Below, piece by piece: positions 30,155 to 61,579 of a stretch of DNA of 64,000 nucleotides. Origin of the DNA: Platanthera guangdongensis (Eukaryota > Streptophyta > Magnoliopsida > Asparagales > Orchidaceae). The DNA is taken from contig CM077165.1 in assembly GCA_039583875.1 (NCBI GenBank), positions 74,388,757 to 74,452,756 on the forward strand, given 5' to 3'. Each line of letters begins with the position of its first letter. Positions within the stretch are counted from its first letter, which is position 1. The position numbers were made by a program, and so were the translations under genes. The notes beneath the pieces were generated by a model. It worked only from the letters and a program-made list of their open reading frames with translations. It was not told the DNA's origin and did no database searches.

Positions 30155-30298
30155 TGTTGGGTACATTGGTCTAAATGTACCTGATTTGAAGAAGCCTCAC
30201 CCAACTCAATGATATACATCAAAATGTATTTGATGTATTTTGAGTTACATGTGCAGGTTTAGTATTTGCAGGAAATGATGAAAAAGTTTCTAAGTCCA

Positions 30299-31164
30299 TG
30301 TGTCGACACTTAAGAAGACTTGTGTCGACACTCAGGCAAGCAGTGTTGACACTTGGAGTCATTGTGTCGACACCTGGGATGCTGAGTCGACACCAGACAG
30401 AAAGTGTCGACACAAGGAGCTGTGTCGACACTCAGTGAAGAAAAGTGCAGTAAAGCTGTGTCTGCACTTAACAGCAGTGTCGACACCTAGAAGAACTGTG
30501 TCTACACCAGAAAGTGTCGACACTTGGAGCTGTGTCGACACTCAGCAAAAATCAGCAGAGACTAAGTATATGTGTCGACACCCAGAACAATGTGTCGACA
30601 CTCAATAGAAGAGTCAACACTTGAAGTAAGTGTCGACACTCAGAACAATGTGTCGACACTCAGCTGAAGACTCAACACTTGAAGAAAGTGTCGACACATG
30701 GAGCTGTGTCGACACTTAACAAAGAACAACAAGATCAACAAAATATTCTAAGTACAAGTGTCGACACTAAGACTATGTGTCGACACTCAGCTGAAGTCTC
30801 AACAGAAGAATCAAGTGTCGACACAAGGAGCTGTGTCGACACTCAGCAAGTATCAACATTGAAGACTATGTGTCGACACCAAGAAGTAGTGTCGACACTT
30901 AACAGATTCAACACAAGAAGTTGTGTCGACACAAAGGAGATGTGTCGACACTTAGAAGAATTCAGCAAAAGATAGAAGATCAAGTACTTGAGTCGACACT
31001 CAATTTCAGTGTCGACACATGCAGAAGAAACTGTGTCGAGACATAGAATCTACAACACAAGGAGTTGTGTCGACACCCTGTAGACTTGTGTCGACACTTA
31101 CACAACTTGTGTCGATACTTGGTCTATAAGTGTCGACACGTAAAGACAGAAAGTCTCGACACTT
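30299..31164. repeat. TGTCGACA palindrome array in SireG U3, 5' copy
   Basis: Roughly 28 intact copies of GTGTCGACAC-type palindromes plus several decayed ones, separated by spacers of mostly 10-25 bp that are themselves related (CTCAGCAA, AGGAGCTG). The array fills U3 and stops about 130 bp before the TATA box. Repeat-derived ORFs rich in VDT/CRH are artefacts. Confidence 0.95.
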
Positions 31165-31296
31165 TCAGACAGTTAGAGAACTTTCAAGAACTGACTGGAT
31201 GACTTGACAGCTGCCGTTCTAGCCGGTCTACATCAACTGTCAGAGATGTCAGAATTCAGTTATGGACCGGACCAGCCGGTTACCATGAAGAAGGCC

Positions 31297-31304
31297 TATA
31301 AATA
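31297..31304 (+). promoter_or_regulatory. SireG LTR TATA box
   Basis: TATAAATA in the context GGCCTATAAATAGGC, directly downstream of the palindrome array. The same box is in the 3' LTR at 42339-42346. It is the likely start site for genomic RNA. Confidence 0.8.
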
Positions 31305-31753
31305 GGCTCATATAGTCTACAGAAATAAGTTGTTGGACAGATTAAAAGTTGTTCAAAAAGTGGTTCACAGAGTTATTCAAGTTATTGATCAAGTATCAAA
31401 ACAAGAAGATCTAGCTGTCCAAGTGCAGATCTAAGGAGTTGGAGAGAGAGGGCTCCATCCAAGAAATCAGCCGTTGGAACTAGGCTGAGAAGAAGGGTTC
31501 AGATTTATTCTGGATCTTAAGAAGCAGAGGTCAAGGATCAACTGCAGAAGGAGTCAATCTTATTGAGTTCTACTTTCAAGAAGCTTTGAAGAAAGCTAAG
31601 TCAGATTGAATACAGCTGAGTTCTTCCAAGAACTCATCAAGAAACTCACAATTCCCCTCACTTGTTTCTGAGTTGCTGAGTTATCATTTGTAAATTCATT
31701 TTTATCTTGTAGGATCCTTTGGATCTGAGTGTTTGTAAGCCTGTAATTATAAA

Positions 31754-31915
31754 GGCTGAGTGTAGGGCTTGAGAGCCTGAGTGTAGGAGATAGAAATCTC
31801 TGAGTGTAGGCCTTGGTGGCTGAGTGTAGGCCTGGGTGGCTGAGTGTAGGCCTTTGTGGCTGAGTGCAGGCTTTGTGGAAAAGCTGAGTTGTAGGGCCTT
31901 GGGCCTGAGGTGTAG
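31754..31915. repeat. GGCTGAGTGTAGGCC short tandem repeat
   Basis: About seven imperfect units of 17-26 bp built on CTGAGTGTAGGCCT, located downstream of the TATA box in the transcribed part of the LTR. They are present again at 42796-42955. Confidence 0.85.
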
Positions 31916-32183
31916 GAACCAGTTTGGGTTCTGAGATAGTGGAGAAGTTTGGCCGAATCTAGTACACTGCTAGATAGGCGAAGGGGGAAAGTGGATGTAC
32001 CCAAATCTTGGGGTACCACTATAAAACTCTGTGTCTGCTGTGATTGTGATTTGCTGTGTGATTGCTGTGCAATAGTTAAGTAAATGCTGTGTGAAAAACT
32101 GTTTGCTGCCATAAATAGTTAAAAAGAATTTGGTCACCTATTCACCCCCCCCCTCTAGGTGTTTAGGTACTATATCTTTCAAG

Positions 32184-32195: not shown

Positions 32196-32286
32196 GAGGT
32201 TACTCAAAAAGGACTAACAGTCTGAGCAGATCCTGATTGGCAGATTCAGTCTAAGGTAAATTACAGATTCAAGAAAATCAAGAACC

Positions 32287-34329
32287 ATGGGTTCCTCTGA
32301 GAATCACAAGGAATTGGGTTCCATGAAATTACCTATATGCAGAAAGGAAATCTTTGGGATCTGTAAGGAAAGGGTAAGGCTGTTTATGGAAGCCTCAGAC
32401 CCTAGGATTTACATCACAGTAAAAGAGGGGCCATATGTGCCCATGAAGATATCAGTTCTAGATGCAAATCAGAGAACCCCAAAGGATTTCTCTGAAATGA
32501 CAAAGGATGAGATTGTCCTAGCCACCATGGACAAAATGGCACAAAACATTATAGTGAGTGCCATAGATGATGCAACTTTTCAGAATCTTATACACTGTAA
32601 GACAGCCAAAGAGATGTGAGATACCCTTATTGTGTATATGGAAGGTTCTGAAGAAGTTAGACAAGACAGAAAATCCTTGCTAAATCAAGAGTATGAAAGT
32701 TTTAGACAAGGAAAGGGTGATAGCATAACTGAGTGCTATAAGAAGTTCTATAAGATAGTGAATGAACTCATGTCTTATGGAAGAGAGTTCAATAATTATG
32801 AACTAAATGACAAGTTCCTAAGGTCCCTAACTAAAGATTGGGACACAAAGATTTGTGCCATTAGAGAAATGGCTAAGTTGGGAGAAATTCCTCCACCTAC
32901 ACTGTTTGACAAATTGTTGTCTTATGAAATGCAGTTGACAGTGAGAAAAGAGGAGGAGAAATCAACAAGAAATGAACACAAGGAAAGAACTGTAGCTTTC
33001 AAGACAGAAGCCCCCAGAAAGTACAGGAAAAAGTCACCAACTCCACCTCCAAAGGTTGCTGAATCAGAGTCAGATGAGTTAGTCAGTACAAAATCTGAAA
33101 GCAGTGAAAGTGATGAAGACTTTGCTGCCTTCACTAGACATTTTCAGAAGTTCTTGAAGAAGAAACAGTGGAGGTCAAGGCCTTCTACTTCACAGGGAAA
33201 AGAAGACCTATATCAGAATAAAAAGGCTTCAAAGAAGGACAGGAAGAGGACTAAGTCTAGCAAGGCAACTGTTTCAAAAATAGTGTGCTATTGCTGCAAT
33301 AGATAAGGCCATGTTGTTGCAGATTGTCCTGAAAAGAGAAAAGAGTCTAGTGACAAGAAGAAGACTCATTTTAAAGGCAAGAAAGAAAAGTCTTTTGTTG
33401 CCAAGAAGGAGAAGACTCTATCAGATATTTCTTCTTCAGAAACTGAGTCAGATGCTGAGGCATACATAGGGCTGTTTGCTGAAGAAGAAGAAGAAGAATT
33501 CATGCAGATTATGGAGTCTATATATGAACAAGAAGACTGTTAGTGCCAAGGACTGATGACATTGACTGAAAATGACAAAATCCTGGAGCAGCCAGGACCC
33601 AGTAAGGTACAATGTTCAACTCTAAGTTCAATTTCTTGTGCCAGTACAGAATCAGATTCATCATCATCTAGTGATGAGAGTGTATCTGAGTCTGACGCAG
33701 ATATTCATCAGTTGATAGATGAATACAAGGTTCTGTTGCAAGCTTACAAGAAGAGCAAGTCCCTAGCCAAAAGTCAGGCAAAGGAAATTGCTGATCTTAA
33801 AGCTGCTGCAATTGAGTTTGAGAAGTCTTTTGATCAAAAACTTAATGAGATAGCCAGATTGAAACACATAACTGTGATTCAAATGGGAACTACATCATTT
33901 AAGAATGATCAAATTAAGAGTCTGGAGATTAATCTTCAGAAGGAGAAGGACTTAGTTGCTAGGTTTTCTAAACCTAAGTCAGTACTGCCTTTAATTGATG
34001 AATTTGTTCATCAAAAAGGCAAGGCTGGACTGGGTTTTACAAGACCTGCAAGGACTGTTCAGTCCAAGTCCAAGTCCAAGGGCAAAGCCCCAACATTCTA
34101 CAAGTCATATGCAGATAAGACAGCAAAGATAGTACCTAAGCAAATGTACAATAAGTTTGAATGTTGGTGCTGTGGCAAGGTTGGCCACTTTGCAATGGAC
34201 TGTTGGCACAATGCTAGTGCCAAAGTGTGTAGCAAACTGCCTATTGGAAAAACAGTAGGTAGCTTTGTCAAGTTGCAAACTAACAAGTACCAAGGACCCA
34301 ATAATACTTTGGGTTCTAAGGTTCATTAA
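32287..34329 (+). pseudogene. SireG gag with stops at 32617, 33304 and 33541
   Basis: One frame of about 680 codons from the ATG at 32287. The N-terminal copia gag region (MKLPICRKEIFGICKERV) is followed by a UBN2-type gag core (KSLLNQEYESFRQGKGDSI, LRSLTKDWDTK). An acidic/basic low-complexity stretch follows, then a first zinc knuckle CYCCNR-GHVVADC, broken by TAA at 33304. After a second acidic part and coiled coil (33700-33960) comes a second knuckle CWCCGKVGHFAMDC near 34162. Stops: TGA 32617 (Trp position), TAA 33304, TAG 33541. The final TAA at 34327 coincides with the end of gag in SireJ and may be natural. Confidence 0.88.
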
Positions 34330-37300
34330 TCTGTTTTGCAGGTGAGTCCAAGTGGCCATACCCCAACATGGTACTTGGACAGTGGATGTTCCAGACATAT
34401 GACTGGAACTAGAGGACTACTAAGGGACTACATTCCAATCAAAGATGGTCCAAAAGTAACCTTTGGTGGTTCTGAAAAAGGAATCATCAAAGGGTTTGGT
34501 AACATTTCTAGTAACTTAGTTACCATTACTCAAGTGGCTTATGTTAAAGGGTTGAAACACAACCTAATAAGTATAAGTCAATTAAGTGATGTAGGGTATG
34601 ATATCTCATTTGTTAAGAATGGTTGTCATATCAAGAGGTCAAGTGATCAAGAGATCATTTTGACTGGTTATAGGAAAAGGAATGTCTATTGCTTAGACAT
34701 TATGGTTGAGAACAATGGTTCTCAAGTGTGTCTTGTAGCTGATGAGATAGTCTCTCATTGTGTCAAATGGCACAAGAGGCTAGCTCATCTAAATTACAAG
34801 ACACTTGGCAAACTCTTTAGCAAAGAGTTAGTGAGGAATGGTCCTCAAGTTAAGTGTGTTAAAGATGGTATTTGCTCAGCTTGTCAAAAGGGCAAGCAGA
34901 CTAAATCCACCTTTAGAAGCATAGAAAACAAAGATGCTGTGAGGTGTTTATACCTCTTGCATATGGATCTTTTTGGTCCAATGCCAGTTCACAGCCTAGG
35001 TAGGAAGGTCTATACCTTTGTAGTTGTAGATGACTACTCAAGGTTTTCCTGGGTGTTCTTCTTAAGATAGAAATCTGAAACACCTAATGTCTTCTATAGC
35101 TTTGTCAAGCAAATTCAGAAGGAACTAAATAGTACAGTGGTCAAGATTAGAAGTGACCATGGTACTGAATTTCAGTCTGATAGCATGACAAAACTATGTG
35201 AAGACTTTGGGATATTTCAAGAGTTTTCTTCACCTAGAACACCTCAGCAAAATGACATTGCTGAGAGGAAGAATAGGACCTTGATAGAGGCTGGTAGGAC
35301 CCTATTAAATGATACATCACTGCCAGAGTATTTCTGGGCTGAAGCAGTTAACACTGCATGCCATGTTATAAATAGGGCTACCATCACTAAAGGCCTCAAC
35401 AAGACCCCCTATGAGGTTGTGAAAGGTAGGAAACCAAACCTATCCTACTTCAGGATCTTTGGTTGCAAATGCTTCATACTTAACAATGGAAAGTCTTACT
35501 TAACTAAGTTTGCTGCCAAGTCCCAAGAGGGAATTTTTGTTGGGTACAGCAATAACAGTAAGACTTATAGAGTCTACAACTTGTCTACACAAGTTGTAGA
35601 AGAAACTGTACATGTAGTATTTGATGAGACTAAACTTATTAATAATGAGTTGTCTAGTAGTGTATGCAGCCCCACAGGTTTAACAAAGAAGATGCACAAG
35701 CTCACTTTAGAAGAAGAATCTACTGCAAGACAGCAAGTAGAAGACAGTGGCTATTGTCCAGGGGGAGAACTACATGTACCAAATGCAGAAGAAGTACAAG
35801 GAGTACAGCAAGATGATGAAACTGAAGAGGTTCAACCAGAAGTAAGGATGCCTCCAGCCAACAGGCATCTTAGAGATCATCCAGTAGAGCAGATTATTGG
35901 AGATCCAAGACAAGGGGTACAAACAAGGAGCAGAAACCTGAATGCAGCAATCTACTCCAGTTTTCTATCCCAAGTTGAACCTAAGAAGTTTGAAGAAGCA
36001 ATACTAGATCCACAATGGACTGAAGCAATGCAAGAAGAGCTTAATCAGTTCAAGAGGTGCAGGGTCTGGGAACTTGTTCCTAAACCTAAAGATCACAATA
36101 TAATAGGAACCAAGTGGATCTACAGGAATAAGATGGATGAACAAGGGGTCATCATTAAGAATAAAGCAAGATTGGTTGCTAAAGGATATAGGCAAGAAGA
36201 AGGTATTGACTTTGATCAAACCTTTGCTCCAGTAGCCAGACTGGAAGCCATAAGGATATTCTTGGCCTATGCAACCTATCAAGGATTCAAGGTTTACCAA
36301 ATGGATGTCAAGTCAGCATTCCTGAATGGTAATCTTAAAGAGGAAGTCTATGTGGAACAACCTTCAGGTTTTGTTGATTCAACTCTACCTCATCATGTCT
36401 ATAGACTTAGGAAAGCTTTATATGGGTTAAAGCAAGCCCCTAGGGCTTGGTATGAAACCCTATCTAGTTTCCTCATTGAGAACAAGTTCTCAAGGGGGAA
36501 AATAGATAAGACTCTATTCCTTAGGGAATCTAGAGGCAAAGTTATACTTGTCCAAATATATGTAGATGACATTATATTTGGGTCTACTGAAAGCAGCCTT
36601 TGCAAAAAGTTTGCAAAACTTATGCAAGGTCAATTTGAGATGAGTAGTATGGGAGAGCTGAAGTTTTTCTTGGGTCTCCAAGTTAAACAGACTGAAAGTG
36701 GTTTATCCATATGTCAGTCCAAGTTCACCCTAGAACTCATAAGGAAGTATGGTATGGATTCATCCAGTACCATGAAGACTCCAATGGGGTCAAGTATGTC
36801 TCTTAGCAAGGATGATGCAGGGAAACCTGTGGATGAAACCTTGTATAGAGGGATAGTTGGCTCCCTATTATACTTGACTGCAAGTAGACCAGATATCATG
36901 TATGCTACATGTGTCTGTGCAAGGTATCAAGCTTGCCCTAAAGAGTCTCATTTGACAGCAGTCAAAAGAATATTGAGATATCTAAAGGGCACTCCTTATC
37001 TAGGCCTCTGGTACCCTAGGAATGAGGATTTTGAACTAACAGGTTATTCAGATGCAGACTTTGCAGGATGCAAATAAGATAGAAAAAGCACTACTGGAAC
37101 ATGTCAATTCCTAGGTGGGAGACTAATTTTATGGAGTAGCAAAAAGCAAACAAGTGTGGCTATCTCCACTGTAGAATCAGAGTATGTGGCTGCAGGAAGT
37201 TGCTGTGCTCAACATCTGTGGATACAATATCAGCTAGAGGACTATGGATTTCAGGTAAGTAGAACTCCACTCTTTTGTGATTCTACAAGTGTTATTTCAA

Positions 37301-37503
37301 TAGTTAATAATCCTGTATCCCATAGTAGAACAAAACATATTGAAATTAAATATCATTTTCTTAGGGAGCATGTAGAAAGAGAAGATATTTCACTTGTATA
37401 TGTTAAAACAGATGAACAACTAGCTGATATGTATACTAAGCCCCTAGAAGAAGCTAAGTTCAATAGATTTAAAATTGAACTAGGAATGATAAACTTAGAG
37501 TAA
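34330..37503 (+). pseudogene. SireG pol polyprotein with stops at 35068 and 37075
   Basis: It stays in the gag frame, without an ATG directly at its head. In copia order: protease WYLDSGCSRHMTG (catalytic Asp at 34378-34380); pre-integrase HKRLAHLNYKTL and CSACQKGK zinc ligands; integrase core [16 protein letters not shown] and [10 protein letters not shown] with [14 protein letters not shown] and the catalytic YVDDIIFGS near 36559; RNase H SDADFAGC near 37050, VESEYVA, and a C-terminus NRFKIELGMINLE. TAG at 35068-35070 lies in the integrase core and TAA at 37075-37077 in RNase H. No frameshift is seen. All catalytic residues I can see are otherwise present. Confidence 0.9.
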
Positions 37504-37534
37504 GTTTACAGAATTGAAATTGGCTAAGTAAAAA

Positions 37535-37985
37535 GGTGTCGACACATAGAGATTTCTGTGTCGACACAGAAAGTTGGTGTCGACACTTCAGGGAAAAGGT
37601 GTCGACACATCTAGAAAGTTAGTGTCGACACTTCAGAATATTAGTGTCGACACATGACAAGTTGGTGTTGACACACCCAAGGTGGTGTCGACACTTAGTG
37701 TTTTACTCAGAATTCTCTAAGTAAAGTCTCGACTATGTGTCGAGTTATGTTGTGTCGACACATAAACAAGTGTCGACACATAAAATCTGTTGACTAAACT
37801 TGTGTCGACACATATGTGTCGAGACATTATAAGTCAGTGTCGACACTTATTGCCAGTGTCGACACAATTTAAGTTAGCTGTCCGGCCTGTTCATCTTCAA
37901 AATTAGAAAGGTATAAATAGGGTTTTGCCTTAGTTTGTCGACACGCTTTCAAAGTTTCTAGACCAAACTTCTGTGTCGACACCTC
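37535..37985 (+). promoter_or_regulatory. Internal promoter of SireG extra ORF: TGTCGACA array plus TATA
   Basis: Between the pol stop and the extra ORF stand about 14 TGTCGACA-type palindromes with the same flanking style as the LTR array. A TATA box, TATAAATA, follows at 37912-37919 in the context AAGGTATAAATAGGG. Two further palindromes (near 37938 and 37975) lie between the TATA box and the ATG at 38017. The LTR likewise has array then TATAAATAGG. The combination suggests a separate subgenomic transcript for the extra ORF under the same control as U3. Confidence 0.75.
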
Positions 37986-38016
37986 TCTTCTCTCAAGACA
38001 AATTCTACAAACCCTA

Positions 38017-40884
38017 ATGGCGCCAAAGCTTGAGGAGAATGTCAACGAAGGATACGAGCTGGTGCGTGGTGCTTTTGAGGATGCCGATCAAGAAATTCAG
38101 GCTGTCGTAACCCTAGTAGCCGATTCAGGGATAGATTATCTTGTTTCAGAACCGACAAAAATCTGGAAGAAAGAGATACTCGAATTCCTCAATGGAGCTG
38201 AAGTGGATGAAACTGGATTCAAAATCAAATCCAGAGTTTATGGAACAAAGGTTAAGATTTCACCAAAGAGATTGAGGAAGGTGCTTCAATTGCCAAGAAC
38301 TAAAGAGGAAGATGAGGTTACAGCTTCAAAGACCAGGGCAACTCTAACCTGGTGTGGACTAGATTCTACAATGAAGATAGGATCTGTGTTTAACAGGAAG
38401 GGAATGAACAATCAAGGAAAGTTTCTTTCTGAAATTGTTGGAAAGGTCATCCTCAGCAAGCCAGGAGGGCATGACAGAGTGTCTGCCTCTATGTTCAATA
38501 TTATGACAAGGATAATTTTCTCTCTAAACACTGACTGGTCTATGGTAGTCTTTGAAAATATTAAAGAAAGCTTGAAGAAGCCCAACCTGGGCAGAATTTT
38601 AAGTCTATACCTAGCTGGTACCATACCAGAGGTAATGCAACAAGCTGCTGGAAGTAAAATAAATCACATGAGAAAAATGGACATGAGGTTGTTTTCTAGA
38701 TGGGACAGGGTGTTGTCTAAAGAGATGCCAACCCCTGTGAAGATAGTTCCTGAGAAAGAAATTCCTCCAAAGAAGAAAAGGAAGACTGTTCCAGTGGCAC
38801 AAGAGTCCACTAGTAGCTCTGACAGTGAAGAACAGGTTGTCTTCACTCCAAATGAGAATGAGGAAGGGACTGTTGAAAAGACTCCTGCTCCTCAAGATGA
38901 TGCTGAGATCCAGGGGGAGCTACCAAGCCTCATCCATAAGGATCAAAGCCAGGGGGAGCTCCCAGTTGTAGATGAACCCACTACACTGGAAAGTGAACAA
39001 GCAACCACAATCATACTAGAGGTAATCACTGAACTAAACACTATAGATTTTCCTATGGAAGATACTGATTTGTCTGATGTTCATCAGCAAACTCAGCTGG
39101 ATAGTCAAGTTCCAGATGCTGTTATAGAAGACACATCTGCTGTTGTTCAAGATGTTATTGTTCAAGTGGTATCTGATCCAGTGGTTGAAGAGACCAGAGT
39201 TTCTCCAGCTCATTCTCCACAAGAGTTTATAATGGAAGATTTGTTTCTAAATCTGGATCAAGAGGATTTTGATAAAGAAATCAATGCTGAAGGAGATAAT
39301 GCTGCTGCTAAGGGGGCGCAAGTGCACATTCTGGAAGAGCCTGTGAGGCAAGAACCTGAGAATGCACCAGCTGTGCAAACTGAGAGGCCCCCAAGCCCTA
39401 AGGAGAGGGTAGATATAGCCAGCTCCTCAGCATCTGAAGATGAGGAGGCTGTCAGGGAAAAGAAAAAGAAACTTTATGTCTTCAAGAGAAGGAGTCAAAG
39501 TTATAAGAAGGCTCTACAATCTATTGCACCACAGCCTATAGTTCAGCAAACACCATCAGTTGATTATAGTGCTTTAATGGTTGCAATGCAAGTCAAGCTG
39601 GATGAGCACAGGCAGGCAATTGAGAAGTATGTAGATGAAGGGCAGAAATCTTTGCAATTTGATCTGGCCCAAGATATCAAGTCAATAAGATTCGAGATGA
39701 ATCTTAACAAAAAGGAAATGACAGACTGTTTTCACAAGGGTGGAAATGCAGTGGTGTACTTGGCAACACACCAAGAGAAGATAAAAGCACAAGTGGATGA
39801 CATAGCATTGAAGCAAGGGTATGTTCTTGAAAATCAGCTAAGGATGAATGACAATCTTACTGCTTCCCATAATGCTATTGTCTTAGAATTAAAGAACCAG
39901 GCTGCTGGACCTTCTACCTCTACTGCTACTGTTAAAGCTGAATTTGACAAGGTATTTCAAGAAGAAATCAATGCTGTTAAAACTGCCATTGAAGACTCCC
40001 AGAAGGCCATATCTGAACAACTTAAAAAGCTCAAACCCTTCTTTAAAGATGGAGTCAGATACTTGGATAATCAAATCAGATTCCAGAAGGATGATGTCAG
40101 AGATCATATGGCTAGAGAAGTCATAAAAGGGGAGAGAGTTTTAGTCAAAGCTAGCTCTGATCATGCTAAATGGATATCTAATTCCATCAGAGATGCACTG
40201 GGCTATCCTCCACTTTGTGATGATGACAATGTTGCTGAATCTGGAATTCAGCCTGCATATCTTGGAGGTGAGCAACCAGAAGTAGCTCAAGTGATCTATC
40301 CTCCACCAGATTTTGAAATGGTGCAAGCTGATATTCATCACATGTATAGCCCAACTGAAGGGAAGTCTAATGTCATTCTGGAGAAAGTGGTTCAGCCTAT
40401 ATCTGAAGCTATGCAAGCAGCTCTTCAGAAAGAAGAAGAAGCTCTACAAAAAGAAGAAGAGATAAGATTGTCTAAGAAGAGGTTTAGGGAACAAGCTGAA
40501 CAAAGGCCAGACTTTGAGAAGTGGAGCCCTACCTCAAGGAATATCATTTTAACTGCCTGGAAAGCTGCCAAAGATAATGTGTATGACAGGAACAAATGGT
40601 TTTCTGAAGCTGAATGGAGAAAACATGAGATCAGGCAGGAGGCAATAGTCCAGTATAGGAGGAAGGCCAAGATGGGAAAGCTACATCCTACTGCTCTGGA
40701 GCCTAGCAAGTACTTTCCAAAGCCATACCATTACTTTGAAAGACAAAAGATCAAAGCAGAAGAGCTTAAGAAGAAAGACTTGAAGGGCAAGAAGCCTGCT
40801 GATGCTGAAGTTGCTGATGCTCCTGTTCAAGCTAAAGTTCAAGCTGGAAAAGGCATAGTGATTAAGGAGCCAGAACAGAAATAG
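38017..40884 (+). CDS. SireG extra ORF: 955-aa nuclear-type protein of unknown function
   Basis: Fully open from the ATG at 38017, 98 bp after a TATA box. N-terminal domain about 1-235 (GYELVRGAF, MNNQGKFLSEIVGKVIL, GRILSLYL) is shared with the SireI and SireJ ORFs. An SV40-like nuclear localisation signal PPKKKRKTV is at 250-258. Then a long acidic, low-complexity region (about 260-470), a basic cluster EKKKKLYVFKRR (about 480-490), a helical/coiled-coil middle (about 520-700) and a conserved C-terminal domain about 830-915 (EKWSPTSRNIIL at 834, later YFPKPYHYFERQ). No signal peptide or membrane segment is seen, so it is not envelope-like. It vaguely recalls 'putative plant transposon protein' domains; I cannot name it. 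It is intact although pol is dead. Sequence-specific regulation is my inference. Confidence 0.85.
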   Translation: MAPKLEENVNEGYELVRGAFEDADQEIQAVVTLVADSGIDYLVSEPTKIWKKEILEFLNGAEVDETGFKIKSRVYGTKVKISPKRLRKVLQLPRTKEEDEVTASKTRATLTWCGLDSTMKIGSVFNRKGMNNQGKFLSEIVGKVILSKPGGHDRVSASMFNIMTRIIFSLNTDWSMVVFENIKESLKKPNLGRILSLYLAGTIPEVMQQAAGSKINHMRKMDMRLFSRWDRVLSKEMPTPVKIVPEKEIPPKKKRKTVPVAQESTSSSDSEEQVVFTPNENEEGTVEKTPAPQDDAEIQGELPSLIHKDQSQGELPVVDEPTTLESEQATTIILEVITELNTIDFPMEDTDLSDVHQQTQLDSQVPDAVIEDTSAVVQDVIVQVVSDPVVEETRVSPAHSPQEFIMEDLFLNLDQEDFDKEINAEGDNAAAKGAQVHILEEPVRQEPENAPAVQTERPPSPKERVDIASSSASEDEEAVREKKKKLYVFKRRSQSYKKALQSIAPQPIVQQTPSVDYSALMVAMQVKLDEHRQAIEKYVDEGQKSLQFDLAQDIKSIRFEMNLNKKEMTDCFHKGGNAVVYLATHQEKIKAQVDDIALKQGYVLENQLRMNDNLTASHNAIVLELKNQAAGPSTSTATVKAEFDKVFQEEINAVKTAIEDSQKAISEQLKKLKPFFKDGVRYLDNQIRFQKDDVRDHMAREVIKGERVLVKASSDHAKWISNSIRDALGYPPLCDDDNVAESGIQPAYLGGEQPEVAQVIYPPPDFEMVQADIHHMYSPTEGKSNVILEKVVQPISEAMQAALQKEEEALQKEEEIRLSKKRFREQAEQRPDFEKWSPTSRNIILTAWKAAKDNVYDRNKWFSEAEWRKHEIRQEAIVQYRRKAKMGKLHPTALEPSKYFPKPYHYFERQKIKAEELKKKDLKGKKPADAEVADAPVQAKVQAGKGIVIKEPEQK

Positions 40885-41161: not shown

Positions 41162-41174
41162 AAATAGGGGGAGA
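41162..41174 (+). other. SireG polypurine tract
   Basis: AAATAGGGGGAGA directly before TGTTGGG. The same AATAGGGGGAGATTGTTGGG junction occurs on the minus strand at the 3' LTRs of SireI, SireJ and SireK. Confidence 0.9.
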
Positions 41175-41175
41175 T

Positions 41176-43221
41176 TGTTGGGTACATTGGTCTAAATGTA
41201 CTTGATTTGAAGAAGCCTCACCCAACTCAATGATATACATCAAAATGTATTTGATGTATTTTGAGTTACATGTGCAGGTTTAGTATTTGCAGGAAATGAT
41301 GAAAAAGTTTCTAAGTCCATGTGTCGACACCCAGAGGGAAAGTGTCGACACTTAAGAAGACTTGTGTCGACACTCAGGCAAGCAGTGTCGACACTTGGAG
41401 TCATTGTGTCGACACCTGGGATGCTGAGTCGACACCAGACAGAAAGTGTCGACACAAGGAGCTGTGTCGACACTCAGTGAAGAAAAGTGCAGTAAAGCTG
41501 TGTCGATACTTAACAGCAGTGTCGACACCTAGAAGAACTGTGTCTACACCAGAAAGTGTCGACACTTAGAGCTGTGTCGACACTCAGCAAAAGTCAGCAA
41601 AGACTAAGTATATGTGTCGACACCCAGAATAATGTGTCGACACTCAATAGAAGAGTCAACACTTGAAGTAAGTGTCGACACTCAGAACAATGTGTCGAAA
41701 CTCAGCTGAAGACTCAACACTTGAAGAAAGTGTCGACACATGGAGCTGTGTCGACACTTAACAAAGAACAGCAAGATCAACAAAATATTCTAAGTACAAG
41801 TGTCGACACTAAGACTATGTGTCGACACTCAGCTGAAGTCTCAATAGAAGAATCAAGTGTCGACACAAGGAGCTGTGTCGACACTCAGCAAGTATCAACA
41901 TTGAAGACTATGTGTCGACACCAAGAAGTAGTGTCGACACTTAACAGATTCAACACAAGAAGTTGTGTCGACACAAAGGAGATGTGTCGACACTTAGAAG
42001 AATTCAGCAAAAGATAGAAGATCAAGTACTTGTGTCGACACTCAATTTCAGTGTCGACACATGCAGAAGAAATTGTGTCGAGACATAGAATCTACATCAC
42101 AAGGAGTTGTGTCAACACCCTATAGACTTGTGTCGACACTTACACAACTTGTGTCGACACTTGGTCTATAAGTGTCGACACTTAAAGACAGAAAGTCTCG
42201 ACACTTTCAAACAGTTAGAGAACTTTCAAGAACTGACTGGATGACTTGACAGCTGCCGTTCCAGCCGGTCTACATCACCTGTCAGAGATGTCAGAATTCA
42301 GTTATGGACCGGACCAGCCGGTTACCATGAAGAAGGCCTATAAATAGGCTCATACAGTCTACAGAAATAAGTTGTCGGACAGATTGAAAGTTGTTCAAAA
42401 AGTGGTTCACAGAGTTGTTCAAGTTATTGATCAAGTATCAAAACAAGAAGATCTAGCTGTCCAAGTGCAGATCTAAGGAGTTGGAGAGAGAGGGCTCCAT
42501 CCAAGAAATTAGCCGTTGGAACTAGGCTGAGAAGAAGGGTTCAGATTTATTCTGGATCTTAAGAAGCAGAGGTCAAGGATCAACTGCAGAAGGAGTCAAT
42601 CTTATTGAGTTCTACTTTCAAGAAGCTTTGAAGAAAGCTAAGTCAGATTGAATCCAGCTGAGTTCTTCCAAGAACTCATCAAGAAACTCACAACTCCCCT
42701 CACTTGTTTCTGAGTTGCTGAGTTATCATTTGTAAATTCATTTTTATCTTGTAGGATCCTTTGGATCTGAGTGTTTGTAAGCCTGTAATTATAAAGGCTG
42801 AGTGTAGGGCTTGAGAGCCTGAGTGTAGGAGATAGAAATCTCTGAGTGTAGGCCTTGGTGGCTGAGTGTAGGCCTGAGTGGCTGAGTGTAGGCCTTTGTG
42901 GCTGAGTGTAGGCTTTGCGGAAAAGCTGAGTTGTAGGGCCTTGGGCCTGAGGTGTAGGAACCAGTTTGGGTTCTTAGATAGTGGAGAAGTGTGGCCGAAT
43001 CTAGTACACTGCTAGATAGGCGAAGGGGGAAAGTGGATGTACCCAAATCTTGGGGAACCACTATAAAACTCTGTGTCTGCTGTGATTGTGATTTGCTGTG
43101 TGATTGCTGTGCAATAGTTAAGTAAATGCTGTGTGAAAAACTGTTTGCTGCCATAAATAGTTAAAAAGAATTTGGTCACCTATTCACCCCCCCTCTAGGT
43201 GTTTAGGTACTATATCTTTTA
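41176..43221 (+). repeat. SireG 3' LTR (2046 bp)
   Basis: Nearly identical to 30155-32181. It has an array at 41319-42205, TATA at 42339, and ends TATATCTTTTA (final C changed to T), followed by the target duplication ACTCT. It is longer than the 5' copy mainly because one palindrome unit (near 41321-41341) is absent from the 5' copy. Confidence 0.95.
41319..42205. repeat. TGTCGACA palindrome array in SireG U3, 3' copy
   Basis: Same organisation as the 5' array with one extra unit. Several palindromes that are intact here are mutated in the 5' copy and vice versa, often at the central CG (for example GTGTTGACAC in the 5' copy, GTGTCAACAC here). Confidence 0.93.
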
Positions 43222-48759: not shown

Positions 48760-49017
48760 GAGGCGGAGGCTACGACGAACTCGCCGGTTGGTACAAGGTC
48801 TTCTACGGAGGAGGTGTTGGATGTCGCTACTTGTCAGTTAGCGGCTGAGCGGTCAGAGGGGGCGACGACGGCAATAGATCACTCACCTCCTGTAGAGGAG
48901 CGACATTCAGAAGAGGTAATAGCGGTAATGGATGACTCGCAGGTGGTAGTGCAGAATCTTGCGCGGGAGTGGAGGTGACCTTGATCGTCGAAAGGTCCTT
49001 GCTCGCCCGATGGACCT

Positions 49018-49506
49018 TGTTGGGTACACTGGAAAATGTGTACCAGATTTAAAGAAGCCTCACCCTACTCAATGATATGCATCAAGGTGTATTTGATGTG
49101 TTTTGAGTTTATATGTGCAGGTTAAGTAATTGAGGGAAATGCAGAAAATTTCTAAGTTCATGTGTCGACACCTAGAGAAGCAGTGTCGACACTTATGAAG
49201 GCTTGTGTCGACACTGGAGAAAAGCTGTGTCGATACTTGGAGTAAATTGTGTCGACACCAGGAAAGGCAGAGTCGACACTAGAAGAAATGTGTCGACACA
49301 TACAGGCAGTGTCGACACACTGTGACGAATAGTTGACATAAATCGTGTCGACACTTAGAGGCAGTGTCGACACCCAGAGAAGATTAGTCGACATCAAATG
49401 TGTCGACACCAGGAGGCTGTGTCAACACACTGAAGGCATTGTCGACATCAACTATGTCGACACACAGGACTTGTGTCGACACACAGCAAGAATTCTGAAA
49501 GAAAAC
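49018..49506 (+). mobile_element. SireH: start of a SIRE-type 5' LTR, cut by SireI
   Basis: It begins TGTTGGGTACACTGG and matches the first ~140 bp of the SireG LTR with differences. A TGTCGACA array (49161-49490, about 13 copies, several altered) follows. It breaks off at the SireI LTR edge; the rest should lie beyond SireI, past the right border of the window. The left flank GACCT (49013-49017) is its expected target duplication. No gene is present. Confidence 0.85.
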
Positions 49507-51240
49507 TGTTGTCGACCTAAATCACCTAGAGGGGGGTGAATAGGTGGTTTGTGCGTCTTTTGCGGAAAAAAAAAATAATTAGAGCACAACACAGAAATAT
49601 CTACCAATATCACATACGACACAAGATTTATAGTGGTTCCCCAACCTTGGGTACATCCACTTTCCCTCACCGATCTAGCAATCAACTAGACTCGGCTACT
49701 CCACTATCTCGGATCAAAAATCGATCTTACCCTCGGAACAAAGTTCCTACAAACTTGATCCAAACAAAGGGATCTACACATCGGAAGATAACCCTTCCTA
49801 CAAACTCGGAGTGAAGAACTCCTACACCCGGAGAAGATTTCTCCTACAAAATTAATAAAGTGTTTACAAGAATACAAACAGTAAATCACTCAGATCTGGA
49901 AGACACGGCCAGGATCTTCTTCTTTACAACTTTGTATCAGAAATCGGTAAAGAAGTTCTCGGCTTCGATCTGGATTTACTCTCTTTTACAGAAATCGAGA
50001 GAGAATATGATCAGCGAAGTCGATCTCGATATGTAACTTTCTTCAGAATAATCCTCTGAAAGTAGAAGCTTTGGCCGGAGGAGAAGGCGGCGGCGGCGGC
50101 TTCCGATTTGCGAAAATCAGAGAGGAGTCGGCTGAAGAATATTTCTCGAAATAGAATGACAAGAAAGCTTGGAGAATACTTTGGGTTTGTCATTTTCTGA
50201 TAAGACCTTATATAGGAGAGACTAACGGTCATAATCAGTCATAATGATGTACACGTGGACCAATCATGTCGCGTGATTTAAAAAATCTCGTCAGAAAAAG
50301 GACTTAGAAAAATTTCGGAAAGATTCAGCCAACTACACGAGTAAGTCAATAACTACTCGAGTAGTTGAATAACTACTCGAGTATATTATGGAGAACATAC
50401 TCGGGTAAATATATAAAGACTACTCGAGTATATAGAGATCAACTACTCGAGTAAGCAGACAGAACTACTCGAGTACGTGTAGAGACCTACTCGAGTACAT
50501 AAAGGATCTACTCGAGTACTGGAGAAGTTACTCGAGTATATTCCATGAATTACTCGAGTACATGAAGTACTACTCGAGTGGAATACTTAGAAAAAAATTC
50601 TGAAGAGGTCTGCTGGCAACTACTCGAGTAGTTGAACTAAACTACTCGAGAGGGAGTAATCTACTCGAGTAGGTGAAAGTTCTACTCGAGTAAAAGACTT
50701 AGAAAAATTTAGATGAGGAAACCCTTTAGTACTCGGGTATAAAGAGAAATCTACTCGAGTATATAAGCATGCTACTCGAGTATATGACTTTGTCTACTCG
50801 AGTAGGTGACTTAGCTACTCGAGTATATGACTATGTCTACTCGAGTACAAGGTTCCTTTACTCGAGTAAATTATACCCAGACTACTCGAGTAGGTGAAAG
50901 CTCTACTCGAGTAAAACACTTAGAAAATTTCTGATGTTGGAAAAACTGATTCTTCTAGAGTAGCCAACTTCAAATTTCTTTCCCATAGTCCAATAGCTTG
51001 AATATGAAGTGTATCCCAATAGAGAGACCACACATGAGTCAACACCTTGGAATATGCAATGAGGGATTACATTTCACAGTTCCTATGTTTGAAGACCCAC
51101 TGTGGACTTACAATGGTCTACACTTCCAGTGAAATTCCTGCAAGCATATAACTCAAACCAAGCATTAGATACAACTTAATTCATCTTAGTTCCAGGGTGA
51201 CTTCATCAAATCTGGGTTCATGTGGATGAAATACCCAACA
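49507..51240 (-). repeat. SireI 3' LTR (~1.73 kb)
   Basis: The minus strand begins TGTTGGGTATTTC at 51240. The end is TG on the plus strand at 49507 (or 49510), next to CCTAAATCACCTAGAGGGGGG, the counterpart of the SireG LTR end. It carries a TACTCGAGTA array, TATATAA at 50214-50208 and a G/C-tract hairpin near the end. The inner border is sharp; the outer border is uncertain by 3 bp. Confidence 0.85.
50335..50920. repeat. TACTCGAGTA palindrome array in SireI U3
   Basis: About 20 copies of CTACTCGAGTAG or TACTCGAGTA with spacers of roughly 10-20 bp and a few decayed copies (ACTCGGGTA). It ends about 120 bp before the LTR TATA box (minus strand). The motif is entirely different from the one in SireG, but the layout is the same. 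Confidence 0.95.
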
Positions 51241-51444: not shown

Positions 51445-53831
51445 TTAGGCTTGAGAGTGCTGCTTATCCATGTTTTCCTGCTGTCTTCTTAGATAACTGA
51501 ATGGCTTTGGGAAATACTTAGGAGGCCTTGGAGGAGCAGCAAGGTTATTTCTCCCAAACTCTCTGCCATGGATCTTCCTTTTCAGCATTGACTTCTCATA
51601 TAACTCCCATTCCTGGGAACTGTAGTGCATGTTTCTGTTCTCATTGTGATCCATGACCAGCCTGAGTGTGTCCAAAATGAGAGACTTTGAAGTTGGAGAC
51701 CAGGCTTCAGGATGTTCAGGGGCCTTAGAAGGAGCAGTCCTGCTAGCAGAGGGACCATCACCATATTTCCTTTTCTTCTTGTGGATTCTAATATCTGGAT
51801 GGGCTTGAAGGAATATATCAGCAGGATCGTCTTTTTCCCAGCCTGGAACATAAGTGTCTGGAGGAGCAACTGAGTCTCCAGGCCTGGGAGAGAAGGTAGG
51901 TTGTTGAGGAACAGCTGGGGCAGTGACATCTATGGCTAGAGGATTGAGATGATGGGGAATGATGTTTGGGTCAACTGCAAGATCTGGCAAGATCTGATTG
52001 TGCATCCATACATCAGTGTCATATGTGTGAAATTTGACACTCTGTATCTGGGCAAGCACATCATCATGAATAGTCTTCACATGAGCTTCCCATACAGCTG
52101 TCTTTTGAGCAGTAGATTTTTCTACCTATTCTTTGAGTTCTTTTATCAAACCCTCCCCCTTTCTGATTTCAACAGATACTTTCTCTATGGTGTCATCTTT
52201 GAAAATGCCAACTTCTTCACAGATCTTCATCTTGTTGGCTTCAGTCCTTTTGTCTAGTTCTATCTGATTGTTTGCCAAGGTGATACCTTGTTCCATAACA
52301 TTGCCCACACTAGTGATAGTATGGTCAAGGGCTTTGCCACCAAGTTTGAACAGGTACTTGAGCTTGTCAGTGTTATGCTGAATTTCAGCAAAACCTCTAC
52401 TCATTTCAGACTCAAGAGCAGTTACCTTGTCAGTGACCACCTTTAGAGAGGTGTCAAAATAGGTTCTCTGTGCTTGAAGAAGAAGTGCAATACTTTGCAG
52501 CAGATCTGAGGAGGAGGAAACTGTAGCAATGGCTGAGGGAGCAGCAGTAGGGATAAGAGGAGTTACCCAAGGAGCCATTTCTTCAATTATCACTGAGCTG
52601 AGAGATCTGGTGGTAGGAATGACAGCATCCAATTCTTCTGTATCATGGGGGATGGAGAAATCGAGGTTTCTGAGAGGGGCCTCAGCTGGCTCAGGAGAAG
52701 GCTCATCAGAAATAAAAATGGTGTCTGGCTTATCTGCTGGAGGATTTGGAGAAGGTGTGGGAGTCCTGGCTGGAGAGTGAGCAGGAGTCTGTGCTGGAGA
52801 CAAGTCCTTGTTACCTTCAGAGGTTGGAGCTGGAGGAGAGGGAGGAGGAGGAGGGAGCACATCTTCAGAAAGCTCTGGAATCATGGCATCTATAACAGCA
52901 GCTGTGGATAGAAGAGTGTCTTGAGGTAGGTGATCTAAGGGAGTGGCTGGACTCTGTGCAGTATGAGGTAGGGATGGAATTTCTGGCTGAGGAGAGGGCT
53001 GCCTGACTTGGCTAGAAGGAGCAGGCTCCCCCTCACTTAGTGCACCAGAGGAGCTGGCCACATGATGAGGAGAGGGAGATGGAGTCCTGTCCTCTTCAAC
53101 TGGAACTGCTGGAATTTTTGAAACTTGTGCAGCTTGGGCAGAGTTCTTGAGCTTAAGATCACATCTCTGAATTGAAGAGATGGAGACCTTCTTCATGTGG
53201 TGAAGTGGGGTTCCTTTGGTGAAGTTGAAAACTGCAGGATCTGTTTCATGGAGAAGCAGAGAGATGATTCTGGCGTAGTTGGGTGATTTCACGCTATCCT
53301 TGATTTTGTCCAGAATCAGCATACCAAACTGAAATTTCTTGTGGCAGACAATTGCTTGCATTATGTCGAAGAAATAGGATGGGATGTCTCTGATGGAGTG
53401 TGCCTTGCAGAGAGGAATTTTGCCAATGATGTCTACCAGAAATTTTCCTTCAGCATTCATGTCTGACCTCTTGATATATTGAGCTTCAGGAGAAATGCCA
53501 TAGAAGAGTGCTGTTCGGTCAGAATCTTCATCATCCAGATCATCTTCTTCATCAACAATAGGTAAACGGAGAAGTTGAGAGACAGAGGCTTAGTGAACTT
53601 GAGTTTCAATCCCTTTACTGTAGATTTTAGAACTTTTCCATTTCGTCGAACCTTGAGATTTGAGAAGAATTCTGCAACTTCGGGGAAGAGAACACGACAG
53701 GGTTCTTGGAGAGTGAAGGAGAGGCTGGCGGTGTCGAGAAGGATGAGGAGGTTGCGGAAATCATCGGAGAGCTCTGCGATACCCTCGGTGACTAGTTCGG
53801 AGCCGACGCCAATCTTGTGAGAAGTCGCCAT
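51445..53831 (-). pseudogene. SireI extra ORF, one frameshift and one stop
   Basis: ATG at 53831. The first ~90 codons (GSELVTEGIAELSDDFRNLLILLDTA, EPCRVLFPEVAEFFSNL, KSTVKGLKLKFTKPLSLNF) align with the start of the SireJ and SireG ORFs. A frameshift near 53570-53590 moves the rest into the frame holding MNAEGKFLVDIIGKIPL and ARIISLLLHETDP. A TAG lies at 52128-52126, after which the frame continues with KTIHDDVLAQ. A long Ser-Pro-rich acidic middle is followed by a basic NLS-like HKKKRKYG near 51780 and the conserved C-terminal domain (EAWSPTSKSLIL, YFPKPFSYLRRQ). About 795 codons in all. No membrane segment is visible. Confidence 0.85.
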
Positions 53832-53922: not shown

Positions 53923-54409
53923 GGTACTCGAGAGATAAAAATGATCTCGTGTAGGTTTGAGGTTGCGGAATTTCATATATATATTACTCTTAAATTACTG
54001 CTAATTAATTTAAAGCAGGAGGCGACATCTAGCCTTGGGGGGCGAATAGAACAATTTTCAAAATCTGGGAAACAGGACACGAGAAGGAGATAGACTACTC
54101 GAGTAGGTAAAGGAGCTACTCGAGTAGGTCGTTAGGAGGTGCTCGAGTAGGTCTGCAAAGAGTACTCGAGTAGGTAGATGACTTACTCGAGTAGGTCGAC
54201 AGGAGTTACTCGAGTAGGAGGAGAGAGCTACTCGAGTAGATGGGTGACTTACTCGAGTAGGTAAATGACTTACTCAAGTAGGTCTTTAGATACTCGAGTA
54301 GGCACATCCTCATACTCGAGTAGGTCAGTATACATACTCGAGTAGGTGCATTCTTATACTAGAGTAGGTAGAGAGGAGTACTCGAGTATGTCTCAACTTC
54401 TCGAGTAGA
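53923..54409 (-). promoter_or_regulatory. Internal promoter of SireI extra ORF: TACTCGAGTA array plus TATA
   Basis: About 13 TACTCGAGTA palindromes (54093-54409) lie between the RNase H end and the extra ORF. A TATA-like ATATATATA follows at 53985-53975 on the minus strand, with one more CTCGAG core near 53927 before the ATG at 53831. It copies the SireI U3 motif, just as the SireG spacer copies the SireG U3 motif. Confidence 0.7.
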
Positions 54410-56458: not shown

Positions 56459-58699
56459 CTATCTTTCCTTAGCTAAGTCATCCTTGAGTTTCTGCGCCAA
56501 AAACTTCTTCCTTTGTCTCTCCATGTACTCCTTAGGCTTCGGGTAATATCTGGGAGGAGGAACTTTATCTGCATCCGTGTTGTTTCTGAAGAATATGTTC
56601 CTTTTGGCTTCATACGTCTTATGCCTCTCCCATTCATACTGGCTGTATACTTCGTTGCGATTGAGTTCTCCTTTTTCTTGTAGCCAAAAGGTGTCCAAGA
56701 TGATATTCTTTGAAACTGGACTCCACTTTTCATTTCTTACTTCCTCCTCACTCAGTCGAGTTCTCTTTTCAGCCTGTGTCTCCTTGGAGGTCCCTTCTTG
56801 AGCTTTTCTTTTTCCCCTGGCTTTTGCTAAGGCCTCTTGGTCAAACATGCTCCTCAGTTTAGCTTTGGAGAGAGCCCTAGCATCAGCTTCATTTGTGGGA
56901 ACATCTGCAGCACTTGCACTTATTCCTTCAGCAGCACCTACTCCCTCAGCGGCCGTAGAAGTCTCAGGAGGATGAATATCTGCAGGATTTTCAGCAAAGG
57001 GGATGCCTAACGCCTGGTGGAGCATCCACCAGTTGCTGTCATAGACGTACTTGTTTGACTGCTCGAAGTTTGTGATCATGACTTCTCGTAGCTCAGCCAT
57101 CTTAGCTATGTAGTCCTCCTCCCCCTTTTTGGCTTCAACATCGATACAGTTTGCATAGGAGTGCAAGGAGTCATCAATGTGCTTGGTGGTTCGGGAGAAT
57201 TCATTGACTAAGGCTTGCTGATTGGTGTTAAGAGTTACCATATTACCGTCAAACTTTTGAATGTTGTTGGCTACAACATGTGCATTCTGATTTACGACAG
57301 CAAGAGTGTCGGTGTTCTTCTTCAATCCGGCCATAAGAAGTGTGACAGCTTCGCCGGCCGCGGTATACTTCTCTTCAAATTTCTTCTCCATCACGTCCAG
57401 TTTATGGTTGATTTCCACCATATTCTTGAGCATGAGCTTTTCAGATGTCTTAATCCTTTTCAGCATTTTATTCTGAGCTTCATCAAAAGAGGCTTGAAGT
57501 TCATTCACAATGCCCTGAATGACATTGATAGTGTGAGTGGCTAGCTCGTCTCGTAACGGAATAACCGGAGGCACTTGTGGGCCTTGCCCTTCAGCAGACG
57601 CATCTGTAGAGCTGGATACAAGCACAGTCTCTAATGGAGGAATGCTGGCGGCCTCTGTAGATTTATCTGACTCCCCCTCCACTGGTGCAGGCTTGTCAGA
57701 TGGAGGTTCAACAGGATCCGGAGCCTCCAATACTTCATGTCCCTCATGCCCTTCATCCTCTTCGTCATCATCCATGAACTCATCTTCATCAGCAACCTCT
57801 TCCAATTCTTTGCCAGCAGTCTCCAGTACAGTGTCACTTTCTTCTCGAATTTCGGCCACAGTATCCCTGGCCACCTGGGAGATTTCAGATACTACATCCG
57901 TATGAGGGGGTAGAGGCTCCCCCTCGATTCCTGCAGGCAAGGTATCAGGAATGTCACTGGGGGTGACTGCTGAAGATACTCCCTGTTGCTCTTCCACTGC
58001 AGTCTGCCCAATACGCCTCTCCCATCGATCAAACACACTTGAGTCCATCTTCTTCAAGTAGTGGAGAGGGACACCTTTACTCATGTCAAATTTGTCTCCA
58101 TTTAGCTGGTTTAGATATAGACTTATGATGCGGCCGAAACTCGGAGAGCCCAAGGTGTCCTTGATCTTCTCGAACAGCAACTCCCCCCAGTTGAACCGTT
58201 TACGGCAGACGACAGCTATCAGGATCTTGAACATATCCGCTGAGATATGGTCGTGAGAGCCCGGCTTGCAGATGAGCACCTTTCCAATAATGTCAGACAG
58301 GAGCTTCCCTTCTTCATTCATATCCTTTCTCTTTATGGACCTAGTTCCTCGTGGGAGACCGCAGAATGAGAGAGTTCTGGCTTTGTCATCGTCCTCCAGA
58401 TAGTCTTCATGCTCCGATCTAGAAAGCTGCAGGAAGCGGGTCAGCTTGCTGGCAGATAGCTTGACCTTTGCCCCAGCCACCTTGCTTTTGATTAGTGAGT
58501 CGCCACTTCGGAGTCTTGCGGTGGCGAAGAACTCCAACACCTCTTTGTCCAAGATTTTGCAAGGGTGCTCCAGGACGAATGTTAGCCCAGCCTCTTCCAG
58601 CATCAGAATGATGTTGCGGAATTCGTCCGAGGCGTGAGAGAACCCAGTCCGAACAAGCTCGTAACCGGTGACCAACCCAGCAGTTGTCCTTGGAGCCAT
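56459..58699 (-). CDS. SireJ extra ORF: intact 746-aa homologue
   Basis: Open from the ATG at 58699 to 56459. N-terminal domain about 1-230: GYELVRTGFSHASDEFRNII, EVLEFFATARLRSG, DMNEEGKLLSDIIGKVLICK, GRIISLYLNQLNG. Then an acidic region rich in Glu/Asp (about 260-370), a helical coiled-coil middle (about 390-540), and basic clusters KARGKRKAQEG and EKRTRLSEEE (about 620-650) that could form a bipartite nuclear signal. The conserved C-terminal domain has EKWSPVSKNIIL with Trp at 659 and YYPKPKEYMERQRKKF near the end. No signal peptide or membrane helix is visible. It is the clearest sign that the extra ORF is kept by selection, since this element has no pol. Function unknown. Confidence 0.85.
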   Translation of the reverse strand: MAPRTTAGLVTGYELVRTGFSHASDEFRNIILMLEEAGLTFVLEHPCKILDKEVLEFFATARLRSGDSLIKSKVAGAKVKLSASKLTRFLQLSRSEHEDYLEDDDKARTLSFCGLPRGTRSIKRKDMNEEGKLLSDIIGKVLICKPGSHDHISADMFKILIAVVCRKRFNWGELLFEKIKDTLGSPSFGRIISLYLNQLNGDKFDMSKGVPLHYLKKMDSSVFDRWERRIGQTAVEEQQGVSSAVTPSDIPDTLPAGIEGEPLPPHTDVVSEISQVARDTVAEIREESDTVLETAGKELEEVADEDEFMDDDEEDEGHEGHEVLEAPDPVEPPSDKPAPVEGESDKSTEAASIPPLETVLVSSSTDASAEGQGPQVPPVIPLRDELATHTINVIQGIVNELQASFDEAQNKMLKRIKTSEKLMLKNMVEINHKLDVMEKKFEEKYTAAGEAVTLLMAGLKKNTDTLAVVNQNAHVVANNIQKFDGNMVTLNTNQQALVNEFSRTTKHIDDSLHSYANCIDVEAKKGEEDYIAKMAELREVMITNFEQSNKYVYDSNWWMLHQALGIPFAENPADIHPPETSTAAEGVGAAEGISASAADVPTNEADARALSKAKLRSMFDQEALAKARGKRKAQEGTSKETQAEKRTRLSEEEVRNEKWSPVSKNIILDTFWLQEKGELNRNEVYSQYEWERHKTYEAKRNIFFRNNTDADKVPPPRYYPKPKEYMERQRKKFLAQKLKDDLAKER

Positions 58700-58879
58700 T
58701 GCAGATCTAGAGAGAGAATCCCTACTCTAAGCTTTAATGAACACTCAAAAGGAAAGAGTCACTAGTGAGAACGTCCAAGTACGGGTGAGGAAGAGGTTAC
58801 CTAGGGGCGTAGACGGAAGTGAGTTTGTGAGCTTCCTGCGAGAACTCTTCCTAGAGCGTCTTTTGGGAAGACCTTCGGT

Positions 58880-61577: not shown

Positions 61578-61579
61578 CT

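Follow-up and report, generated by a model that had tools for sequence, protein, structure and literature searches.

Element 1, a Sirevirus-like Ty1/copia retrotransposon in a 64,000-nt stretch of the genome of the orchid Platanthera guangdongensis (the window), carries arrays of one 10-bp palindrome in two places, the U3 regions of its long terminal repeats (LTRs) and the spacer between pol and an extra open reading frame (ORF), each beside a TATA box. The arrays are probably binding sites of one sequence-specific factor; the U3 array would serve genomic RNA, and the spacer array would most likely serve a second, internal promoter starting ∼70–80 nt ahead of the ATG of the ORF. The predicted product of the ORF appears not to be a membrane protein and has basic clusters of the nuclear type. 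Its N-terminal domain is most likely fold-related to the DNA-binding anti-silencing protein VANC21; on account of this likeness the ORF product would be the likeliest factor, keeping both promoters open. To this explanation as a whole we assign a probability of about 0.5. Its first part, that U3 and spacer would share a regulatory array, is well supported by footprint-like conservation and joint switching in the sequences compared.

The window contains 81 copies of the palindrome TGTCGACA where 0.86 would be expected, a count reached in none of 100 shuffles. An earlier note on this DNA had described about 14 palindromes in the spacer, then a TATA box and, 98 bp later, the ATG. There are indeed 14 TGTCGACA in the spacer, of which 12 precede the TATA box and two (37936, 37974) follow it; the distance needs correction, to 105 bp when counted from the first base of TATA to that of ATG, or 94 bp from the end of TATAAATAGGG. 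The longer unit GTGTCGACAC is found there in 13 exact copies and three with one mismatch; gag-pol has none within one mismatch and one with two, and the extra ORF has none within two mismatches. The note's central observation, the same palindrome array and TATA at U3 and spacer, is confirmed, with GTGTCGACAC arrays in both and TATAAATAGG in the spacer and behind both U3 arrays (Table 1); TATAAATAGG also occurs at 24589 and, within pol, at 35367. The window holds 39 distinct 10-bp palindromes, not counting simple ones of two letters, and only four of them reach at least three copies: GTGTCGACAC with 77, TACTCGAGTA with 31, GAGAATTCTC with 4 and TCACTAGTGA with 3. Across the 4.25-Gb assembly the paired motif was counted at 1,406,372 places and the reversed pattern at 52.

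After masking of the palindromes, spacer and LTR aligned best over the TATA stretch, at a score of 21 that 76 of 200 shuffles also reached. U3 and spacer have the palindrome and the TATA in common and no other detectable similarity; the wording that the spacer ‘copies the U3’ thus holds for these motifs and fails for the rest. A captured or nested LTR as the origin of the spacer was rejected, there being no homology after masking. Strict helical phasing of the boxes was not supported (Rayleigh R at 10.5 bp of 0.35–0.46 in element 1, and of 0.65–0.80 in element 3, where the ∼18–24 bp spacing alone would raise R), and a bacterial promoter scan of the spacer was set aside as not meaningful for plant DNA. 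Two and four viral contigs held one or the other motif pair; in the first two, the 251–301 bases around the match contained isolated boxes. GTGTCGACACTTGGGCCAAGTGTCGACAC and similar palindrome pairs repeat every 103 bp in contig 1 (475159–483108; 5 among the matches listed), perhaps a satellite derived from Sirevirus boxes.

Two further elements, both on the minus strand of the window, have homologous extra ORFs. In element 3 the motif has switched jointly in U3 and spacer: both carry arrays of TACTCGAGTA, each followed by a TATA-like sequence, while the motif of element 1 is absent from element 3 and TACTCGAGTA from element 1. Evidence for concordance between U3 and spacer comes from elements 1 and 3, which agree, from element 2, which has half-sites, and from a published table; full agreement was thus seen in one of the two further elements.

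The palindromes are also conserved as a footprint would be. When 49017–49445 of a related LTR fragment was aligned in register, its 13 palindromes were 94.6% identical and the intervening sequence 62.9%, a contrast equalled by none of 267 shifted versions; with palindromes defined in the fragment instead, the values were 97.5 and 62.7%. Genomic copies were the first 30 of 150 scored (from 102,760 candidates; at least 90% identity over the first 242 residues of the ORF). Between 29 genomic copies and the window copy, agreement is 92.6% within the array palindromes and 85.9% in the bases separating them. Differences within the LTR pair of element 1 (palindromes 8/350, array between palindromes 10/513, remainder 17/1161) give no sign that this copy has been constrained after it inserted, which is as expected.

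The distribution of CpG follows the boxes in element 1. In the gag-pol region (32180–37500) a single CpG is present over 5321 bp, an observed/expected ratio of 0.01, and the extra ORF has 11 in 2868 bp; the spacer has 19 in 516 bp, 16 of them within palindromes, and the two U3 regions have 36 and 37, of which palindromes hold 32 and 33. The boxes are either under selection or escaping methylation, and both are compatible with binding sites; CpG retention in these arrays bears on low methylation only indirectly. The near-total loss in gag-pol is found in a young element.

An internal promoter ahead of the ORF is plausible from the arrangement of the spacer. There TATAAATAGG is exact in 22 of 30 copies and its TATAWATA core present in all 30, always 104–106 bp ahead of the ORF start, which is ATG in 29; in element 1 no ATG lies between TATA and ORF start. 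The two boxes of this leader are 38 nt apart in element 1 and 39 nt apart in the gene models P0004 and P0008. P0004, from P. zijinensis, reads through the leader with residues GINR that are compatible with GGTATAAATAGG, and the two boxes follow at a matching distance (score 13.2 against a maximum of 5.9 among 300 shuffles). P0008, another family member from P. guangdongensis, likewise fits both boxes (29.3 against 3.7). Since the two models use different frames at the boxes, it is the leader DNA and not a peptide that is conserved, and conservation as coding sequence was rejected.

The extra ORF comprises a PF20167-related N-terminal domain, an acidic middle and predicted long helices (coiled coil), with a basic cluster PPKKKRKT near residue 252. 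It has no membrane-type hydrophobic segment, its highest 19-residue Kyte–Doolittle mean being 1.17, and thus lacks the transmembrane segment of a retroviral-type envelope. Transposase_32 (E 0.054) was the only Pfam family matched at E up to 10. For the N-terminal domain the predicted fold resembles VANC21 at 8% identity. The full-length structure prediction (pLDDT 38.8) was unusable; the 50 matches listed from its PDB comparison fall in the helical part, residues 507–738, with VANC21 absent, which is not a real control. A viral structure library gave no match at E 0.001. When the profile of the domain was run against the sequences of solved structures, six chains matched at E up to 10, all at profile positions 382–585, outside the domain, and a plasmid search with the ORF of element 2 gave no match. 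Parts of the retrotransposon ORF are included in three public Platanthera gene models, P0002, P0005 and P0008, which bear the names polyamine oxidase, kinase and transcription elongation factor.

A host transcription factor might instead read both arrays, the extra ORF having a different role. This would fit other Sirevirus repeats, in which mainly stress-related plant sites were found, and the LTR arrays of elements without ENV (Bousios 2010, PMC2829016), but the use of unrelated palindromes by two families in one genome, and of 12 different motifs among 13 published elements (PMC2829016), better suits element-specific factors, and we regard a host factor as rather unlikely.

Several observations weigh against array-read promoters controlled by the ORF product. 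In element 2, TCTCGNCGA occurs 13 times in U3 and once in the spacer, the two having the half-site in common and not the palindrome; agreement of the motifs in related copies, the lack of which the earlier note had named beforehand as a refutation, is seen in element 3 and goes no further than half-sites in element 2. CpG is also kept outside the arrays in elements 2 and 3 (for example, observed/expected 1.01 and 0.97 in the LTR part past the array), so its restriction to boxes is no general rule. The spacer TATA is no better conserved than its neighbourhood, 72 of 206 windows being equally high. DUF1985 and DUF287 are not matched by the extra ORF at E up to 10, and for the 16 proteins searched together they are absent among the 25 of 34 matching families listed. 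The fold match to VANC21 falls below the caution line of the aligner; the self-regulated circuit imagined in the earlier note has gained a concrete candidate in this domain, at that level of confidence. Finally, CAGGTAAGT, which is unique in the 64 kb on both strands, places a splice donor 280 bp ahead of the array. The internal promoter that the note proposed stays plausible, given the TATA core, its fixed distance and the fitting gene model from another species, and this donor competes with it.

Splicing has to be considered seriously, in place of or alongside the internal promoter, if as an unlikely route on present evidence: the ORF would be read from RNA starting in the 5′ LTR, like retroviral env, with an acceptor immediately ahead of the ORF and the array intronic. 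The donor CAG/GTAAGT at 37252, a perfect match to the consensus, is exact in 28 of 30 genomic copies, and in the three Platanthera gene models found with both pol and the ORF (P0004, P0006, P0008) the RNase H exon, as annotated, ends at it. Coding constraint alone may keep it, however, since 81 of 300 windows of nine bases in the pol end show equal conservation. A donor this far 3′ would moreover leave gag-pol ahead of the ORF and give a fusion product without the RNase H end, and the leader, as noted, is not conserved as coding. The acceptor AG overlapping the TATA is altered in 3 of 30 copies (one with an AG one base on) that keep the TATA core, a better acceptor at 37996 lying outside the comparison. 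Retroviruses keep a leader donor shortly after the 5′ LTR; in element 1 a donor-like AAG/GTAAAT (8/9) lies at 32255 on the plus strand, 74 bp past the 5′ LTR, and a second 8/9 site at 34341. Splicing of env-like RNA has been reported for barley Bagy2 (PMC7264820).

The palindromes could also act in RNA, as hairpins of neighbouring copies (in packaging, recoding or dimer contacts) or as small-RNA targets. Spacer RNA folds far above shuffles (z −12.7, 0/100), as would any array of identical palindromes, and maize Sirevirus regions that contain palindrome clusters show an excess of small RNAs (Bousios 2016, cited in PMC10760457); targeting by small RNAs would account for a cost and not for conservation. 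The arrays lie upstream of TATA boxes, that of the 5′ U3 being absent from LTR-promoter RNA, and we judge a role in RNA improbable. That the shared motif is a functionless by-product of copying between U3 and spacer, in reverse transcription or conversion, is already disfavoured and very improbable: U3 and spacer units resemble each other somewhat in their flanks in element 3 (similarity 0.309 against 0.265, 0/500 shuffles as high) but not in element 1 (0.299 against 0.289, p 0.148), where the masked spacer aligns to the LTR with a score that shuffles also reach, the palindromes and not the sequence between them are conserved, and palindrome CpG is kept against the near-complete loss in gag-pol.

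Element 1 has both ends, is flanked on either side (at 30155 and 43221) by the 5-bp target duplication ACTCT, and has LTRs 98.3% identical with gaps excluded (35 differences in 2024 sites); we take it to be a young Sirevirus-like retrotransposon. Its gag-pol is broken across frames, yet the extra ORF is open; rve and SH3_retrovirus lie ahead of RVT_2 in one frame, which is the copia gene order. As in Sireviruses, a AGGGGGAG tract adjoins the 3′ LTR with an AT/TG junction, the LTR 3′ ends are polyC-rich (CACCTATTCACCCCCC at 32135 and 43177), and palindromic boxes precede the TATA in U3 and the ENV position. Clustered tract copies before the 3′ LTR were not found, the element having four AGGGGGAG, one of them after the ORF and the others at 35760, 38912 and 38951. 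Nor is there a CGG-CCG core, the core being TCGA; published Tnd-1 (PMC2829016) likewise has none, so this trait is not absolute.

Rfam and tRNA scans of the window gave no matches. Element 2 (54567–63470) has a 523-aa ORF with a weak zinc-knuckle match (E 0.38), perhaps gag, and no pol ORF of at least 150 aa between LTRs only 83% identical; its upstream LTR is preceded by a polypurine-like stretch, so that it may be a recombined, pol-less element. The LTR end of element 3 adjoins the U3 array of an element 1-type LTR fragment (49013–51250), as if inserted there. A Ty3/gypsy element at 6752–17550 has 2.77-kb repeats of 99.2% identity, probably the LTRs of a recent insertion, and a tandem array at 44503–45417 has a 44-bp step and 16 register copies.

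Table 1. Features of the window, with window coordinates
Feature	Coordinates	Strand	Details
Element 1	30155-43221	+	Sirevirus-like Ty1/copia LTR retrotransposon, both ends present
5′ LTR, element 1	30155..32181	+	
U3 palindrome array, 5′ LTR	30300..31162	+	GTGTCGACAC: 26 exact, 7 one-mismatch, 2 two-mismatch
TATA behind U3 array, 5′ LTR	31297..31306	+	TATAAATAGG
gag-pol remnants	32632..37503	+	Retrotran_gag_2, Pol_BBD, integrase, RVT_2; several frames
5′ splice donor	37252..37260	+	CAG/GTAAGT, inside RNase H coding end
Spacer palindrome array ahead of TATA	37536..37865	+	GTGTCGACAC: 12 exact, 2 one-mismatch; spacing mostly 18-23 bp
TATA in spacer	37912..37921	+	TATAAATAGG
Two boxes between TATA and ATG	37935..37982	+	TTGTCGACAC 37935, GTGTCGACAC 37973
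Extra ORF, element 1	38017..40884	+	955 aa
Polypurine tract ahead of 3′ LTR	41166..41175	+	AGGGGGAG + AT, Sirevirus junction
3′ LTR, element 1	41176..43221	+	
U3 palindrome array, 3′ LTR	41321..42204	+	GTGTCGACAC: 28 exact, 7 one-mismatch, 1 two-mismatch
TATA behind U3 array, 3′ LTR	42339	+	TATAAATAGG
Fragment of related LTR	49017..49482	+	
TATA-like after U3 array, element 3	starts 50215	-	CTATATAAGG
U3 array, element 3	50334..50913	-	TACTCGAGTA: 20 exact, 4 one-mismatch
Extra ORF (part), element 3	52129..53460	-	30% identity to element 1 ORF over 182 aa
TATA-like in spacer, element 3	53974..53983	-	TATATATATG, between spacer array and likely ORF start (ATG 53831)
Spacer array, element 3	54096..54407	-	TACTCGAGTA: 11 exact, 4 one-mismatch; past apparent pol end (by eye)
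Extra ORF, element 2	56459..58699	-	746 aa; PF20167 (E 9.6e-9); 38% identity to element 1 ORF over 231 aa
Spacer, element 2	58700..59300	-	7 TCYCGNCG half-sites, looser matches, one strand only
U3, element 2	~62740-63100	-	13 TCTCGNCGA, both strands

The function and expression of the Sirevirus extra gene are unproven and controversial in the literature seen. We tentatively propose, as a possibility that is open to doubt, that the Sirevirus ‘envelope-like’ protein is a VANC-type sequence-specific DNA-binding protein with anti-silencing or activator function. Each family would have a private palindrome, arrayed in the LTR and ahead of the protein's own gene; protein and sites would form a positive feedback loop holding the family's promoters unmethylated, and the two would change together at family splits. 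If so, the VANDAL strategy would have been reached by, or be common to, a retrotransposon lineage, and sequence-specific anti-silencing would be no peculiarity of VANDALs but a strategy of an abundant group of plant retrotransposons. With the motif of each family named, the TATA located and a rival splice donor identified, the DNA-binding hypothesis can be tested directly.

Grande of maize is a Ty3/gypsy element, Athila a Ty3/gypsy lineage, and VANDALs are Mutator-like DNA transposons. Grande gene23 (Gomez-Orte 2013, cited in PMC7264820) resembles the extra ORF as an accessory gene between pol and the 3′ LTR, with its own promoter and a nuclear protein; it differs in being antisense, and the available text of PMC7264820 mentions no shared palindrome array. 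The extra ORF of sunflower Athila likewise has Transposase_32 (PF20167) and nuclear-localisation signals, while the part of PMC11728184 seen describes no array with a shared U3 motif.

VANC and its VANDALs (Hosaka 2017, PMC5735166; Sasaki 2023, PMC10398659) offer dense short-motif arrays in noncoding regions, and motifs that shift fast between related elements alongside a diverging element-encoded protein, both of which are likened to the present case; the predicted fold of the ORF domain may add a further resemblance. Element 1 does have one-motif arrays in noncoding regions, as a candidate target of the ORF product. Arrays of the VANC21 motif YAGTATTAY keep a single orientation (PMC5735166, PMC10398659), whereas palindromes are found here, and the extra ORF has 8% identity and no DUF1985 match. 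No paper linking Sirevirus ENV with VANC came up in literature searches, none of which aimed at exactly that pair.

The Sirevirus RM boxes (Bousios 2010, PMC2829016) are high-copy LTR palindromes before the TATA that recur before the ENV-like gene, with CpG concentrated in boxes, as in element 1. Nine of 13 RM elements in that work have ENV, all nine with linker and LTR copies and with 77 of 79 linker boxes upstream of ENV, while a further six elements with ENV lack boxes in these places and have CpG-rich stretches instead (PMC2829016). The array-before-ENV pattern and the idea of an internal ENV promoter are therefore already known from that paper (PMC2829016). Their CGG-CCG core is replaced by TCGA in GTGTCGACAC and TACTCGAGTA, and 35 and 36 boxes per LTR (up to two mismatches) compare with 3–14 in published 3′ LTRs (PMC2829016). 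In element 1, in addition, boxes also lie between TATA and ATG. The present analysis adds the orchid motifs, the TATA located before the ORF and its conservation, the joint switch seen in a second family of the same window, the contrasts in conservation and CpG between boxes and other sequence, the splice donor, and the predicted VANC21-like fold.
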